DNA of 11,789 bases from Nitrososphaerales archaeon TH5894 (GTDB taxonomy: Archaea; Thermoproteota; Nitrososphaeria; Nitrososphaerales; Nitrososphaeraceae). Under the pieces are notes generated by a model that worked only from the letters and a program-made list of their open reading frames with translations, was not told the origin of the DNA and did no database searches. Position numbers and translations under genes: made by a program. The DNA is taken from assembly GCA_014523485.1 (NCBI GenBank), contig JAATVK010000252.1:1-11789 (forward strand), given 5' to 3'. The first letter of the stretch is position 1, and each line of letters begins with the position of its first letter. Positions 2,023 through 10,699 of the stretch are shown here, in pieces.

Positions 2023-4419
2023 TATAGCAAGAAAAGTATTTGGAGAAATAAAGGGACGTAAAGAGTCTTGCATAGTCGCATATAGCTTTAGCATAACAGG
2101 TCCTAATGGAATTTTATCTGTTTCTTCTTTTGATAAAGTAATTTGAAAGTATCCTTCTTGATTGGGTATTGGGAATGCTTTTCCCTGTGAGATAATATTT
2201 CCATTATAATCAATAAGGAAGAATTCTGCAGTTATAGAAGATGACATACTTTTATTCATTGGAATGTTATCAACTAGAATCTGAAATTCATAAATTTTTT
2301 CTTCCCCTATTTTTATAAACTTAGAGAAATTAACAGACGCTACTTGAATTGTTTTAGGGTTTTCAAAGTTTGACCAATAATTGCGTTGAAAAGGATAGGA
2401 AGAATCATTAAATACTTTAATATCTATGGTCCTTCCTGAAGGATTATATTTGTCTAGATAGAAGGCACCATTACTTATGACTGCGTGATTATGTTTTTCT
2501 ATCCAATTTATGCTGGCCTCATATCTTTTTTTTGCTTCTTCCAAGTTTACAATGCCCTTAAGAGGAGTAGGGATAAAGTTTTCATTCTTCATCTTAAGTA
2601 GCTCATTTTTTATTAAATTAGCGTGCGTTGGAATTATTAACGATAACCATTCTGCATTCTTGGTAGTTGATTGCGATTTAGAAAATGAAAGAGCATTTGA
2701 CAAAACTAATCTTTCAGTAGCTGCAGTTATCTCCCACGGTTCTTGAGCCCATACTCCTGCACTTGCAGCTATTTCTTTATTATCATAATGCCATTGATCC
2801 AAATACGATTCTACAATATCATCGTTTTCAGAGATAAATCTAATTCCTTTAAAATAAGGTAATCCCAGTTCCATTCTCGAAGTATATTCTGGATCAAAAG
2901 TAGGATCAGTATCCCCACTATTTGTACCCCATTCATACATAAAATATAATGAATATAATAAGTCAGATTTATCCATTGGGATTCCGTTATGCCAGTTAGA
3001 GTATAAAATTTTATATGTGACTTTGCTTAATGATGTAGAATTCTTTTCTACAGGTACCCATCCTAATGTACTGTTCCATATAATCGTATCAGGGTGAATT
3101 GGTATTCTCTCATCAGGACCATTCATTGTTGAATTGAGAATTTGATTTCTCATTGAAATAACTTCTCCTGTAAATGGATGTCTCAGAGTAGGATTATCAG
3201 CAATATTCGAGTAGATATTTATGCTATAAGCGTCACTAAATCCACCTATCGTGTTCCAGGCACCTTGATAAATTTGTTTAACTCCTACTTTTAGAGAATT
3301 ATTGCGGTCAGATTTTGCGTTTAGTAATGAATATTTGCTTGTAATTCCAGCCCCAAAGTCATTTACTAGGCCCGTTACAGAAGAAGAAACAGCATAAGGA
3401 TCGATATTCTTAACTAAAAAAATCCGTACAGATTCTTCAATACCCATTCTGGTTGCTTCGTTAAGTAATGTATTTCTTTCATTTTCAGAACTAAAATTTG
3501 AGAAGACCAATTTCTGAGTTATTTTATCCAATGTAGAATTCTGATATTGCCAAAATCCAGGATTTTGATTTCCTGGCATGTTAGCATACCAAGGCGAGTA
3601 CATTTGAGCAAGGACTGCATCATTATATTTAATAAAAGATGTAGATCCAGCGAATGCTTCAGTATATACATGCCATAAAAATTTTTGTGGGTCTGATCCT
3701 TGAGTGATGGTAACAGCTTTATTTAGATCACTATAATCCTTTATAATTGTAAAACCTAATTGTTCAAGTTCTGAAGAAACTAATTCTCCAAGAACTTTTC
3801 TTTGAAGATCATCACTTCGTATTAAAACTTTTATTTTAATAGGTTTGTCATTATAATACCATTTCTCATCTTTTAATTCAGCTCCCTGTGCTAGCAAAGT
3901 TTTTTTAATTTGTTTTAATGCATAATCTGGATCATAATGGAATCCAAATGACTCAACAGTGTCCATTACTATAGGATAATCAGGTGAGAAAAGACCAAAA
4001 GCATCGTACATTGGAATTCCATAACCATGTAAAAGCTCATTTGAAATAAAATTTCTGTTTATTAAAAAATTTATAGCAAATCTAATATCACGAAATTCAA
4101 AGGGATTAATGGTATCATTATTTGATGATGGAGAAGGATTTAACAAAATTCCAAATGAACCCCCAATTTTATCATATAGTGTGATACTAATATCATTTTT
4201 TATATCTGAAACCAAATCAAGTGGAATACGAAAAAAATATGTATCCAAGTTTCCAGACTTTATTTCCTCAATAGCGACATTTTCATCTAAGTAATGGATA
4301 AATCTTACATTGTCGATATTTTTTGAGTCTTCCTGGCTTGAAATTTCAAAAGATAATTGAAAAAGAAGCAAGAAAAAAAAAGAGAGAAGAATGATAGAGA
4401 AATTAGTAAATTTATTCAT
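2017..4419 (-). CDS. Secreted ABC-type solute-binding protein, family 5 (peptide/oligosaccharide type)
   Basis: 800 residues. Family-5 binding proteins capture peptides, oligosaccharides or nickel outside the cell and hand them to a permease. Seen: a short basic N-terminus then a hydrophobic signal core at about residues 7-24, followed by polar sequence. The mature part has family-5 traits: VRFIHYLDENVAIEEIKSG early on, FEFRDIRFAINFLINR, and YDPDYALKQIKK. The last 120 or so residues look like a beta-rich, Ig-like accessory domain, known in some archaeal members. There is no lipobox Cys after the signal and no C-terminal membrane helix, so anchoring is unclear. About ten N-x-S/T sequons occur in the mature part. 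No permease or ATPase lies in the window, so it is an orphan or its partners lie elsewhere. The ATG at 4419 has no Shine-Dalgarno. The substrate cannot be read from sequence. Confidence 0.82.
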   Translation of the reverse strand: MNKFTNFSIILLSFFFLLLFQLSFEISSQEDSKNIDNVRFIHYLDENVAIEEIKSGNLDTYFFRIPLDLVSDIKNDISITLYDKIGGSFGILLNPSPSSNNDTINPFEFRDIRFAINFLINRNFISNELLHGYGIPMYDAFGLFSPDYPIVMDTVESFGFHYDPDYALKQIKKTLLAQGAELKDEKWYYNDKPIKIKVLIRSDDLQRKVLGELVSSELEQLGFTIIKDYSDLNKAVTITQGSDPQKFLWHVYTEAFAGSTSFIKYNDAVLAQMYSPWYANMPGNQNPGFWQYQNSTLDKITQKLVFSNFSSENERNTLLNEATRMGIEESVRIFLVKNIDPYAVSSSVTGLVNDFGAGITSKYSLLNAKSDRNNSLKVGVKQIYQGAWNTIGGFSDAYSINIYSNIADNPTLRHPFTGEVISMRNQILNSTMNGPDERIPIHPDTIIWNSTLGWVPVEKNSTSLSKVTYKILYSNWHNGIPMDKSDLLYSLYFMYEWGTNSGDTDPTFDPEYTSRMELGLPYFKGIRFISENDDIVESYLDQWHYDNKEIAASAGVWAQEPWEITAATERLVLSNALSFSKSQSTTKNAEWLSLIIPTHANLIKNELLKMKNENFIPTPLKGIVNLEEAKKRYEASINWIEKHNHAVISNGAFYLDKYNPSGRTIDIKVFNDSSYPFQRNYWSNFENPKTIQVASVNFSKFIKIGEEKIYEFQILVDNIPMNKSMSSSITAEFFLIDYNGNIISQGKAFPIPNQEGYFQITLSKEETDKIPLGPVMLKLYATMQDSLRPFISPNTFLAIN

Positions 4420-6213: not shown

Positions 6214-8010
6214 ATGGAAAATGGCCCTGATAGTATATCTAATATTCATAGAAGATGGGCTTTAACTCGGATCAATTTTTCATCGTATAAAATTTCTTTA
6301 GTAATATCACTAATTAGTTCTTTAGCTATAATATTAGTTATTGATCATTTTTATCTAAACCTGAATTTAATGCAATTCATTCTATTTACAATAACTGGGA
6401 TATCTTTTCTCATTTTCAGTTATTTCTTAGACCTCTTTTTGTTAAGGAAAACACCGGTTAATAAAATATCCAAAATTCTCCATGTTTCAGCTTTTTCGAA
6501 TTTGTTATGGTTACTCATCCTGATCCTTGGATTTTTTACTTTTATTATTTTTCAGAAAGATGTTCCTCCTAATGGATACCTGCTTGAGGGAATGATGTTA
6601 GCGATTGGGCTAAGAATAGGAATATTTACTTCAGTTTTTGGTGCTAATTTAGTAAAAGCAATAAAAACTGCAGTAATCCAGCCTATAGTTTTTCTATTAT
6701 TTATTATTCCCTCTTATGTTTTTGTTGAAATTTTTTTCAATGTTGTGGCAATTTCCTTTGGTTTAATTTTAATAGGATTAGGTATAGGATGGACAATACT
6801 TGCAGATAGAGCAGGAAGGCCAAATATACAGAGTACTTTTACTCTTCTTCAGGCTTTTCTCTCAGCATGGACAGAAAACAAGGTTGAAAATATAGAAAAA
6901 ATATTGTTATCCAAGTCTAGAAATAAATTGGTTGATACATATATTGTTAAATTTACTAATACACATGATAACCTTTATTTGGTTTTACCCAATATTCATC
7001 CCGGGCCTTTTAAAGAAATTGGTGGAAGTAATCTCCCTTATCAAATATATAACCATTTTTCTCAAAAAGCAGTGGTATTCCACAGTGCTTCTGACCACTC
7101 CTTGAACATTCCATCTAAGAGCGAGCTCAGAGAATACCTAAATTCACTATCTGATACACAAAAGACCATAGGTAATGGAAATACATGCTCCATACCTATT
7201 CAACTAAAAAATAACAACGCTACGGTTACAGGGATAATCTTAAACAATACTCCTATACTAATACTGTCTTTAGCACCTTATGGTATGGAAGATATTCCAG
7301 AAGAAATAAGTAAAGAATTGGAATCATATTCAAAAAATGAAGGATTCAAGCGACCCTTTATAATAGATAGTCATAATGCCATGGGAAAAAAAATTGGAAA
7401 ATGTGAAAATGAAGATTTTTTAGTAGCAGCAAAAACATGTCTAAAAACCTTAAAGAAATCTCCACAATATAATTTTAAAATTGGGTTGTCAAATACAAAA
7501 GATATTGAAAATCATCTAGTCTTTGGAGAAGACCTTGGTAAAAGTGGTCTTTCTATCATCCTTATTGATGTGAACAAAGGTGATAACGATAACAATAATA
7601 ACAATAATCGATTTGTAATAGGTTGGGCTGATTCTAATAATATGAAAAGTGGATTAAGAGAATATATTATAAAATATTTACAACAAAAAGGAATAAGAAT
7701 GTTAGAAATTTGTTCATCCGATACTCATGAGAATTCGGGATTTAGAACCTCAGAAGGGTATTATCCATTTGGTCACATAACCAAATTTGAAACAATAGCA
7801 GATCATTATTATAAGCTTATAGAACTAGCATATAAAAAATTAGAAGTTTATGAATACGAAGTATTACATACTGAATCAACAGTAAAGGTTATGGGAATGA
7901 ACCAATTTATGGATTATTCTAATGCTTTAGATAAAGCAATGAATTTAACTAAAAAATGCCTAATGATTACGTTTGGAGTAATATTAGTTATGCTGATAGC
8001 TACCAATTAA
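6214..8010 (+). CDS. DUF2070 family integral membrane protein
   Basis: 598 residues; an archaeal family of unknown function. The N-terminal third is membrane-embedded, with hydrophobic segments at about 27-45, 53-75, 92-114, 124-142, 152-172 and 174-195. A large soluble domain of about 380 residues follows, then a final hydrophobic helix near 582-596. The soluble domain has clustered His/Asp motifs typical of metal sites: HPGPF at 262-266, HSASDHS at 290-296, DSHN at 385-388 and SSDTHE at 501-506. I infer a metal-dependent hydrolase-like activity at the membrane, unproven. Residues 457-465 are a run of Asn and Asp from AAT/AAC codons, likely a disordered, slippage-made insert. It starts 15 bases after secG, which hints at a role near the translocon or in membrane protein handling, but co-transcription alone does not prove this. 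Confidence 0.88.
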   Translation: MENGPDSISNIHRRWALTRINFSSYKISLVISLISSLAIILVIDHFYLNLNLMQFILFTITGISFLIFSYFLDLFLLRKTPVNKISKILHVSAFSNLLWLLILILGFFTFIIFQKDVPPNGYLLEGMMLAIGLRIGIFTSVFGANLVKAIKTAVIQPIVFLLFIIPSYVFVEIFFNVVAISFGLILIGLGIGWTILADRAGRPNIQSTFTLLQAFLSAWTENKVENIEKILLSKSRNKLVDTYIVKFTNTHDNLYLVLPNIHPGPFKEIGGSNLPYQIYNHFSQKAVVFHSASDHSLNIPSKSELREYLNSLSDTQKTIGNGNTCSIPIQLKNNNATVTGIILNNTPILILSLAPYGMEDIPEEISKELESYSKNEGFKRPFIIDSHNAMGKKIGKCENEDFLVAAKTCLKTLKKSPQYNFKIGLSNTKDIENHLVFGEDLGKSGLSIILIDVNKGDNDNNNNNNRFVIGWADSNNMKSGLREYIIKYLQQKGIRMLEICSSDTHENSGFRTSEGYYPFGHITKFETIADHYYKLIELAYKKLEVYEYEVLHTESTVKVMGMNQFMDYSNALDKAMNLTKKCLMITFGVILVMLIATN

Positions 8011-8893: not shown

Positions 8894-9124
8894 TCAAGTT
8901 TTATTCGTCGGCATTTTCTTTAGGTTTTCAAAGGTTCTTAATATTAATTTATATTTTCCATTTCTTGGTCTGATTCCTAATCTATAACCACAACATGGAC
9001 ACCATATACCATCCCATTCGATATAGATCTCACACACCTGACAGCGTTTTTGCCCTCTCAAATAGCGTCCTCCATTTCGAGGCTTTATTGCTTTATGACA
9101 TTGACAAATTCCCTTACATGTCAT
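8894..9124 (-). CDS. Small Cys-rich zinc-ribbon-like protein
   Basis: 76 residues, basic. Seen: CKGIC at residues 3-7 followed by C9 and H10, CQVC at 28-31, and CPCC at 42-45 within WDGIWCPCCGYRL. The paired Cys motifs indicate one or two zinc sites. A GQKRCQVCEIYIEWDG core followed by CPCCGYRL is, from memory, a recurring small protein of ammonia-oxidizing archaea, often in several copies, of unknown function; nucleic-acid or protein binding would be usual for such ribbons. The ATG at 9124 has no Shine-Dalgarno. It stands alone with gaps of 883 and 265 bases on either side. Existence is well supported by the conserved-looking core; the role is not known. Confidence 0.8.
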   Translation of the reverse strand: MTCKGICQCHKAIKPRNGGRYLRGQKRCQVCEIYIEWDGIWCPCCGYRLGIRPRNGKYKLILRTFENLKKMPTNKT

Positions 9125-9389: not shown

Positions 9390-9695
9390 TTATTTTAATG
9401 ATTCAAAAAATTGAATTAATCTTCCATTAAAGCCATAATTATATTTCATTAATTCTGTAATTTTCTCAACACAATTTAAGCAAATATTGTAATATTTGTC
9501 AGAAAGATCGTCGTTATTATTAGTGAGAACCTCCGATTTTTTAGTTTTGTTATTGTTACTCCTGCTACTGTTGTTGCTGGTACTCCTACTAACATTTAGA
9601 TATACAATCGTGTTAATTTCATTATTGCAAATATCACAGGTTTTGATTTGCTCTTCTTTGACTATATCTTTTGTGGTCGAAATATCTTCTATCAT
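9390..9695 (-). CDS. Hypothetical protein with two CxxC pairs split by an Asn/Ser-rich insert
   Basis: 101 residues. Seen: CDIC at residues 20-23 and CLNC at 72-75, which together would make a four-Cys zinc site. The intervening region (about 38-62) is low-complexity Ser, Asn, Arg and Lys, encoded by imperfect triplet repeats at about 9540-9600. The C-terminus ELMKYNYGFNGRLIQFF is ordered-looking. I recognise no family. The plus-strand reading of the same DNA gives a poly-Leu frame that is best seen as its shadow. The ATG lacks a Shine-Dalgarno. It resembles the 62-residue protein at 10905-11093 in design (zinc pairs around an Asn/Asp-rich loop), though not in sequence. Confidence 0.6.
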   Translation of the reverse strand: MIEDISTTKDIVKEEQIKTCDICNNEINTIVYLNVSRSTSNNSSRSNNNKTKKSEVLTNNNDDLSDKYYNICLNCVEKITELMKYNYGFNGRLIQFFESLK

Positions 9696-9876
9696 ATTTA
9701 TTTTTCTGAGTTTGTTGCCATTAATGTTTTCCTTAACTAAATCATATTTTACTTGTTAGAACCAATTTTTTAAAAAAAATATTCAAAGTAATTAATGAAA
9801 ATCTGCCATTTTGATTTTTAATGAAAGTAACAATTAATTTTATCCAATCCAAATAATACATGTAGTATAAGTATTT

Positions 9877-10593
9877 ATGTTTGTGAATAATCTGAATCGG
9901 TTTACTTCGTCCTTTGCAGCCAATTTTAAGTTTTATAAAAATATATCAGAACAGTATACTGACCATACAATATTGGATTCTGTCAATCAATTAGTACCAG
10001 AAAAGTTTTTAAAATCATCTCTCGATCACCAATCGTTACCTCCTCTCTTACATTGGTTCAAAAATGACTTAATGAAATGGATGCCAAAAGAACTTCAATG
10101 TTCAAGCTGTCATAGGCGGATGAGAGTCCAAATAAAAGAAGGTGATTCAAAGATATTCCGCAAAACAGAAGTACATTCATGCGATAAATGTGACTCCTCC
10201 ATAATATTTCCTCGATATGTGAAAATACTAAAGATTGCAGAAGTAAAGATCGGCAGGTGCAGTGAATGGTCTATCCTCTTTGGAGCTATTCTAAATTCAT
10301 TGTCAGTTCAAACTAGAATAGTACATGATTTTCTTGATCATTGTTGGAATGAATCTTTGATAAATAAAAAATGGATACACCTCGACTCAACTTTGAACTA
10401 TCCTATTTCCTTTAACCACCCTTATTATTATGAACAAAATTGGGGAAAGGAATATGAGTATGTTTTTGCATTCTCTACCAATAGCATTGAAGATGTTACA
10501 AGATATTATACTGAAAAGTGGCAGATGATTAAGAACAGGAGAGTAAATGAAGATAAAGCAAATATATTGAAAAAATTCTACTCGAGAGTATAA
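9877..10593 (+). CDS. Peptide:N-glycanase (PNGase/NGLY1/Png1-like) with transglutaminase fold
   Basis: 238 residues. Eukaryotic cytosolic PNGase cuts N-glycans from the Asn of misfolded glycoproteins before proteasomal breakdown. Seen in order: LLHWFKNDLMKW at 57-68; zinc knuckle pairs CSSC at 75-78 and CDKC at 102-105; FPRY at 111-114; GRCSEW at 126-131 carrying nucleophile C128; DHCWNES at 154-160 with H155; WIHLDS at 166-171 with D170; YYEQNWGKEYEYVFAFS at 184-200; and DVTRYYT at 206-212. Each matches the eukaryotic core in order and spacing, so the triad and zinc site are intact. It lacks the PUB and PAW domains of animal enzymes, like the short yeast form. Related Rad4/XPC proteins lack the triad, so they fit less well. 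The ATG at 9877 has no Shine-Dalgarno; GTG at 9883 is an alternative. There is no clear operon partner. Family assignment is strong; activity in this cell is inferred. Confidence 0.88.
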   Translation: MFVNNLNRFTSSFAANFKFYKNISEQYTDHTILDSVNQLVPEKFLKSSLDHQSLPPLLHWFKNDLMKWMPKELQCSSCHRRMRVQIKEGDSKIFRKTEVHSCDKCDSSIIFPRYVKILKIAEVKIGRCSEWSILFGAILNSLSVQTRIVHDFLDHCWNESLINKKWIHLDSTLNYPISFNHPYYYEQNWGKEYEYVFAFSTNSIEDVTRYYTEKWQMIKNRRVNEDKANILKKFYSRV

Positions 10594-10699
10594 TCCACTA
10601 TTCACCAAATAAATTAATATTGTGCTAGGAATATACTATACAAAATATATCAGTGTATTTAGTGATGATGATTTTTGTTTTAAATATACACCAAAAACA

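Follow-up and report, generated by a model that had tools for sequence, protein, structure and literature searches.

Cytosolic peptide:N-glycanase (PNGase), represented by mouse NGLY1 (2f4m) and yeast Png1 (1x3w, 3esw), is the enzyme of NGLY1 deficiency and is regarded as a eukaryotic tool of quality control in the endoplasmic reticulum (ER). In the Png1-type mechanism of eukaryotic PNGase, the glycan is released as a glycosylamine and asparagine is converted to aspartate, and a chitobiose core is required. Rad4/XPC, which shares a transglutaminase-like domain (PF03835) with these enzymes, is a large inactive DNA-repair factor with added DNA-binding beta-hairpin domains; the title of a 2001 paper by Anantharaman reportedly describes Rad4/XPC as inactive enzymes. 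According to the available portions of the sources, animal PNGase additionally possesses PUB and carbohydrate-binding domains (PMC8997433), Dictyostelium PNGase has conserved residues R229, W239, E241 and W248 that may be essential for catalysis (PMC3502110), and bacterial PNGase F, which performs the same overall reaction, is built on an unrelated fold, a double jelly roll (PMC8812541). Searches of open-licence papers turned up no account of a cytosolic-type PNGase in archaea. In the available portions of PMC8997433, PMC3502110, PMC2866665 and PMC2791212, the sole mention of archaea is in a cited title (Makarova 1999).

The gene described here lies on a stretch of 11,789 bases (the window), which is the entire contig C223 of the genome of a soil archaeon related to ammonia oxidisers (G000; 281 contigs, 87.5% complete). 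The gene begins with ATG, an in-frame stop being located just 5' of it with two codons between, and its downstream side is cut because the window ends with the contig. A sequence-only reading had claimed the PNGase core motifs for the 238-residue protein, and all of them are present in the open reading frame: HWFK, CSSC, CDKC, FPRY, GRCSEW, LDHCW, HLD, WGKEYEYVFAFS and DVTRYYT. No signal peptide or membrane segment is evident in the protein (P0001) on inspection by eye. The features are collected in Table 1.

Table 1. Features of the PNGase-type gene and of two upstream neighbours, in window positions
Feature	Position	Strand	Basis
DUF2070 membrane protein, yardstick for transfer	6214..8010	+	Pfam 5e-111
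Upstream neighbour, 101 aa, CxxC pairs	9390..9695	-	no Pfam family over cut-off
PNGase-type gene	9877..10593	+	238 aa; sequence matches, alignment, model
N-terminal helices (model H2-26, H30-37, H42-45, H51-65), HWFK helix included	9880..10071	+	model secondary structure, alignment
First CxxC pair of predicted zinc site, C75 and C78	10099..10110	+	invariant in 30/30 rows; same in mouse and yeast
Second CxxC pair of predicted zinc site, C102 and C105	10180..10191	+	invariant in 30/30 rows; same in mouse and yeast
Catalytic Cys C128 in GRCSEW	10258..10260	+	invariant in 30/30 rows; aligns to Cys of mouse/yeast GRCGEW
R147, W157, E159, W166	10315..10374	+	invariant in 30/30 rows; identical in mouse, yeast and 7/7 mini rows
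Catalytic His H155	10339..10341	+	27 residues past Cys, as in mouse and yeast
Catalytic Asp D170	10384..10386	+	alignment, invariant in 30/30 rows
PNGase/Rad4-type post-triad extension (YYEQNWGK...YVFAFS...DVTRYYT)	10387..10545	+	Pfam Rad4 match, residues 162-227

P0001 is the core of a cytosolic-type PNGase (NGLY1/Png1). Searching the PDB sequences with P0001 (phmmer) retrieved mouse PNGase at 1.5e-26 and yeast PNGase at 3.1e-24 and 3.5e-24, the next match standing at 0.75. A profile built from 30 archaeal rows matched mouse and yeast PNGase at 2.3e-42, 1.1e-38 and 1.3e-38, followed by 0.037, so that PNGases and not generic transglutaminase-like proteins were its only significant matches. The single control used, a generic archaeal transglutaminase (L085), matched 3isr (2.8e-7) and 6g49 (8.7e-5) and not PNGase. 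Among Pfam families, Transglut_core (1.4e-8) and Rad4 (1.2e-5) were found in P0001, the Rad4 score lying below the cut-off of 27 for the protein itself (25.5 bits) and just above it in the genome search (27.3). Of the 35 genomes of the window's family with a match, 28 supply the 30 aligned rows (A1); the copies of G055 (truncated at a contig end), G012 (L054, missed by the motif filter), G019, G020, G029, G042 and G053 are left aside.

P0001 is 34% identical to mouse and 33% to yeast PNGase over about 180 columns, and its archaeal host has no ER. It retains 41 of the 79 columns that the two eukaryotic enzymes have in common, including both CxxC pairs, which form the predicted zinc site, and C128, H155 and D170. 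Behind the triad, Y185, W189, K191, A198, F199, D206, V207 and Y211 are retained, corresponding to the W-K, AF and DV motifs of the eukaryotic enzymes. The triad and the four zinc cysteines, which had been described as intact from the sequence, proved invariant in all of the aligned archaeal copies, as did R147, W157, E159 and W166, which correspond by spacing to the four Dictyostelium residues named above. A copy outside the alignment (L054) has GKCSEW in place of GRC and keeps the Cys, His and Asp. Moreover, dN/dS was 0.15-0.30 in all eight pairs tested, a sign of purifying selection, and the protein has therefore been retained for its function.

The AlphaFold model of P0001, made from A1 with no templates, has a mean pLDDT of 90.3 and a pTM of 0.89, with pLDDT values of 93-97 across residues 121-170, which hold C128, H155 and D170. 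A Foldseek search with this model gave mouse PNGase as the best match (3.9e-15, TM 0.76 by query length) and only PNGases at ranks 1-4; XPC (7.1e-7) and Rad4 (1.7e-4 and weaker) came next, and 3isr (1.4e-3) and transglutaminase 2 thereafter. The predicted fold thus ranks PNGase before XPC/Rad4 and transglutaminases last, in agreement with the sequence matches, the profile and the L085 control that the protein is a PNGase, as had been proposed, and not a generic transglutaminase; the latter identity is ruled out. Generic proteins of this kind (PF01841; 3isr, 6g49) share the papain-like core and the triad with P0001 but have neither the zinc ribbon nor the PNGase post-triad motifs. Unlike animal PNGase, the archaeal protein has no room for PUB and carbohydrate-binding domains. 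A set of compact zinc-less archaeal proteins (mini forms, L064-L070) resembles it in the triad, the R/W/E/W set and the post-triad motifs, but lacks the zinc ribbon, belongs to other families of the phylum and forms a separate branch.

P0001 is predicted to be an enzymatically active, minimal, cytosolic-type peptide:N-glycanase, a reading to which we give a probability of roughly 0.6. C128, activated by H155 and D170, would serve as the nucleophile, and the enzyme would cut the amide bond that joins the first N-glycan sugar to asparagine, turning Asn into Asp. The glycan would leave as a glycosylamine and decay to free glycan and ammonia, while the zinc ribbon would support the cleft. Its likely substrates would carry a chitobiose-type core and be either glycoproteins that are unfolded or proteolysed or glycopeptides of short length.

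The main competitor to an active glycanase is a protein of PNGase fold that performs another thiol reaction, as a deamidase, protease or transglutaminase on peptides, and releases no N-glycan. This is unlikely, though several observations lend it some weight. The archaeal copies share changes beside the catalytic Cys, mostly GRC[ST]EWS.LFGA. As far as the available portions of the sources go, members of the papain-like superfamily differ in the reactions they catalyse (PMC10318531), and AtPng1 has been reported with transglutaminase activity (PMC2866665). Drosophila Pngl lacks one CxxC and, despite a conserved catalytic domain, showed no deglycosylation and appears to work without that activity (PMC2866665); by analogy, this case would count against activity of P0001. 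Set against such a reaction are the R/W/E/W residues, invariant here as in mouse and yeast, together with the failure of the profile to find generic transglutaminases and their place below PNGase and XPC/Rad4 in the fold ranking. A non-catalytic role in DNA damage recognition, in which only the fold had been kept as in Rad4/XPC, is highly improbable. The Rad4 family of Pfam does match 19 of the 30 members (E 0.01), XPC/Rad4 rank next after PNGase by fold, and the post-triad extension is common to both. However, Rad4/XPC are inactive enzymes whereas the archaeal proteins have an invariant triad, no Rad4 sequence appears among the profile matches even at E 10, and 238 residues are too few for the beta-hairpin domains of Rad4. 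A Rad4-like identity is ruled out by the intact triad and the missing sequence match.

Our inferences for the predicted glycanase are that it is active and cytosolic, that it acts on the substrates named above and that it serves to salvage or clean up glycopeptides. Since archaeal N-glycosylation takes place outside the membrane, a cytosolic enzyme would need an imported or internal substrate, and we know of no such glycosylated substrate for a cytosolic archaeal PNGase. For the same reason its likely job would be clean-up, perhaps glycopeptide salvage, and the nitrogen freed by deglycosylation may benefit the cell. The gene is dispensable and seemingly mobile, so a niche function would fit it better than a housekeeping one. 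In favour of the glycanase reading, the window's genome encodes the oligosaccharyltransferase STT3/AglB, as do 61 of the 70 family genomes overall. Three single-contig genomes that lack the PNGase gene are presumably those of N. evergladensis, gargensis and viennensis; Nitrososphaera viennensis, the species with a characterised glycan, is thus probably without it. In the available text of PMC12153357, the N-glycan of N. viennensis is a hexasaccharide whose chitobiose-type core consists of modified sugars, and marine Nitrosopumilus piranensis shows no apparent N-glycosylation; this difference fits the occurrence of PNGase in the soil family. With its core sugars modified, this glycan would not necessarily fit a eukaryote-like pocket. 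Additionally, Nitrosocosmicus, in which the PNGase gene is frequent, is described in the accessible part of PMC11559005 as having no S-layer genes and possibly a glycocalyx.

The gene had been placed by the sequence-only reading in a gene-poor, accessory-looking stretch, a description that did not hold, as core chromosome lies on either side. The upstream genes are TFIIB, SUI1 and DUF2070, and the downstream side of the syntenic region L101 carries Ribo_biogen_C, a helicase, an MIT/AAA ATPase and a pyrophosphatase. A conserved operon was not found among 21 regions including the window, of which only L101 and L102 share its neighbours; the 101-aa protein with CxxC pairs also stands beside PNGase in these two alone. 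A small Cys-rich protein of 76 aa with no Pfam family over cut-off (window 8894-9124, minus strand) also belongs to the synteny with L101 and L102. In 7/21 regions (L114-L118, L104 and L109; two of the window's family and five of genus g20), an MFS transporter is located tail-to-tail with the PNGase gene, the L104 copy being assigned to Pfam MFS_1, and the two genes are possibly an ancestral pair. Four Nitrosocosmicus regions carry a long aminopeptidase-like protein divergent to PNGase (M1 by eye, HELAH). Both neighbours speak for the glycanase reading, although neither link is family-wide.

Within the window's family, PNGase matches at E <= 0.001 occur in 35/70 genomes and 10/12 genera and are absent from the other 35; the matches include copies that look degraded, with internal stops or split frames (G019, G020, G029), and a marginal one (G053). 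Restricting the count to genomes with a completeness of 90% or more and a contamination of 5% or less gave the gene in 19 of 37 and no match in 18. Single-contig genomes carry it in three cases (G012, G013, G014) and lack it in three (G031, G032, G048). The gene is thus dispensable within the family, which tells against the glycanase reading. Contamination of one bin is ruled out by the three single-contig carriers and by the archaeal neighbours in the window. One 4.0-Mb genome (G002) holds three copies (L006, L007, L008), which group with copies from Nitrosocosmicus (genus g5; g6 being Nitrosopolaris) and not with the same-genus copy of the window.

Beyond the family, the genome sets were samples from larger groups. 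The order sample gave 45 matching genomes out of 400 at 1e-30, of which 34 belong to the window's family and 11 to one genus (g20) of a second family. In the class sample, 42/400 matched at 1e-10, all within the window's order and one being a virus-like case (G644), and in the phylum sample 30/398 matched at 0.001. Full-length zinc forms accounted for eight of the latter, all in the window's order, and none was found outside this order among the 398 phylum and 400 class genomes; the remaining phylum matches span the catalytic half only. The mini forms, PNGase-like open frames of 167-191 aa, were found in seven of the 398 phylum genomes, from two other families. One of them (L068) matches mouse PNGase at 1.4e-23; across 98 aa of the catalytic core the two share 45% identity, above the value of the zinc forms, which applies to a longer match. 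PNGase-like catalytic domains were also seen in another group, made up of larger proteins with membrane-helix-like stretches (L071, L072, L075, L077, L079), which might act extracellularly.

The sequence-only reading had favoured transfer of the gene or lineage-specific retention. Transfer gains support within the archaeal family. The window's genome and G002 are 78% identical in DUF2070 and at most 54% in PNGase, whereas four members of another genus, g10, share 42-45% identity with the window's genome in DUF2070 and 63-70% in PNGase. Across 26 genomes, with DUF2070 as the one marker, the two identities were uncorrelated (Spearman 0.10, p 0.64); this comparison was made without G000 itself, without G001 and G022 (no DUF2070 match) and without G019, G020, G029, G042, G049 and G053 (broken, split or marginal PNGase matches). 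DUF2070 was matched in 64/70 genomes of the family. At the DNA level, similarity with the g10 loci L011, L012, L014 and L015, and with the same-genus locus L013, does not reach beyond the gene (at most window 9875-10595). Since a relocated gene could produce this picture too, and some of the loci are short, the discordance of identities is the main evidence for transfer. At third codon positions, the GC of the PNGase gene reaches 0.31 in the window, 0.35 in L101 and 0.32 in L102, where the neighbours average 0.20-0.21; it is 0.30-0.34 in the g10 copies, whose loci have a GC of 0.34-0.36. As a counterweight, the gene also exceeds the neighbour mean in 13 of the 18 other regions, though within about two standard deviations. 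The simplest reading would be a gene-sized transfer from a g10-like donor, as judged from one marker gene. These comparisons suggest that PNGase may move between related archaea as a single gene.

In the trees, the zinc forms of archaea make up a single clade (99/98 in 48 rows, where the bootstrap had not settled; 99/97 in 47 rows), and together with mouse and yeast they group apart from the mini and membrane forms (100/100 and 99/99, respectively), long branches being flagged in both trees and mouse and yeast being the only eukaryotic sequences. The trees take five of the 11 second-family genomes, without f1_L048 and, from the 47-row tree on, without TM_L081; L073, L074, L076, L078, L079 and L080, missed by the motif filter, are in no tree, and L082-L085 did not serve as outgroup. 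In AU tests, whose clades were chosen with the first tree already in view, grouping of the mini forms with eukaryotes (p-AU 0.033) or with zinc forms (0.032) was weakly rejected, and grouping of archaea with mouse (0.136) or yeast (0.193) was not.

Two histories, close to the sequence-only reading's alternatives of transfer from a eukaryote and an old shared component, may be weighed on these results. One transfer out of an early eukaryote, followed by spread among these archaea, is a tentative option, at somewhat under even odds. The one clade of zinc forms, standing with eukaryotic PNGase against the zinc-less relatives, fits a single entry, the confinement of full-length zinc forms to the window's order in the genomes sampled agrees with it, and the AU tests leave nesting with mouse or yeast unrejected. 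Nevertheless, nesting inside eukaryotes was not recovered with the two eukaryotes in the tree, zinc-less PNGase-like enzymes exist in other archaea, and the MFS pairing, present in both families, hints that the gene is old within the order. The other history is an old archaeal enzyme, ancestral to eukaryotic PNGase and lost many times, which is only slightly less likely. Both archaeal branches, mini and zinc, resemble eukaryotic PNGase, in one mini form as closely as the 45% noted above, and an archaeal origin has been argued for the eukaryotic enzymes of chitobiose synthesis in the available portion of PMC8993221. Against such ancestry, the mini and zinc forms did not group, the distribution is sparse down to the few mini-form genomes, and the genome searches stayed within one archaeal phylum, outside the Asgard, euryarchaeal and bacterial genomes.

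A further relative is encoded on a 4895-base contig, G644:C26 (the whole of L132), from a bin of the second family of the order. Its gene (2535-3056, plus strand) specifies a PNGase-like protein of 173 aa with no zinc ribbon and lies directly behind a phage-type family-B DNA polymerase; an unnamed open reading frame and an NT5C/phrog_420 gene follow. The contig looks like a fragment of a virus. The gene occurs in 1/5 genomes of its genus, and its best PDB match is yeast PNGase (4.8e-21). In a 35-row tree keeping 16 of 29 f1 rows, it joins the archaeal side with modest support (86/81), with the mouse-yeast pair weak at 77/27 and the clade of eukaryotes, archaea and L132 at 99/99; AU tests did not reject L132 with eukaryotes (0.265) and rejected L132 with the mini forms (0.038). 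The L132 protein has two weak, partial matches among unannotated phage records of human faecal origin (2e-4, 1e-3). A BFVD fold search gave one match (E 8.9e-4, TM 0.36). Pattern scans of viral contigs with A1, A2, L132, A4 and A3 yielded 27, 93, 7, 24 and 24 candidate stretches, respectively, none of them confirmed. Carriage on plasmids or phages was rejected on the records searched, P0001 and one mini form having no match in plasmids or phages and mouse PNGase none in plasmids.

New here are a PNGase identity that does not follow that of a core neighbour within the family, and a virus-like contig with a zinc-less PNGase-like gene. A bolder and quite improbable picture is that soil relatives of ammonia-oxidising archaea keep travelling single PNGase genes, along with virus-carried relatives, which would cut nitrogen-rich N-glycans with a chitobiose core off spent glycoproteins or glycopeptides, this pool being the archaeal side of the NGLY1 lineage. 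If it were true, glycoprotein clean-up would be older than the endoplasmic reticulum. P0001 offers a small single-domain enzyme for work on mechanism and for glycoproteomics. The apparently intact archaeal core, which sits in a family with a described chitobiose-core N-glycan, makes two questions testable, namely the purpose of deglycosylation without an ER and the origin of eukaryotic PNGase.
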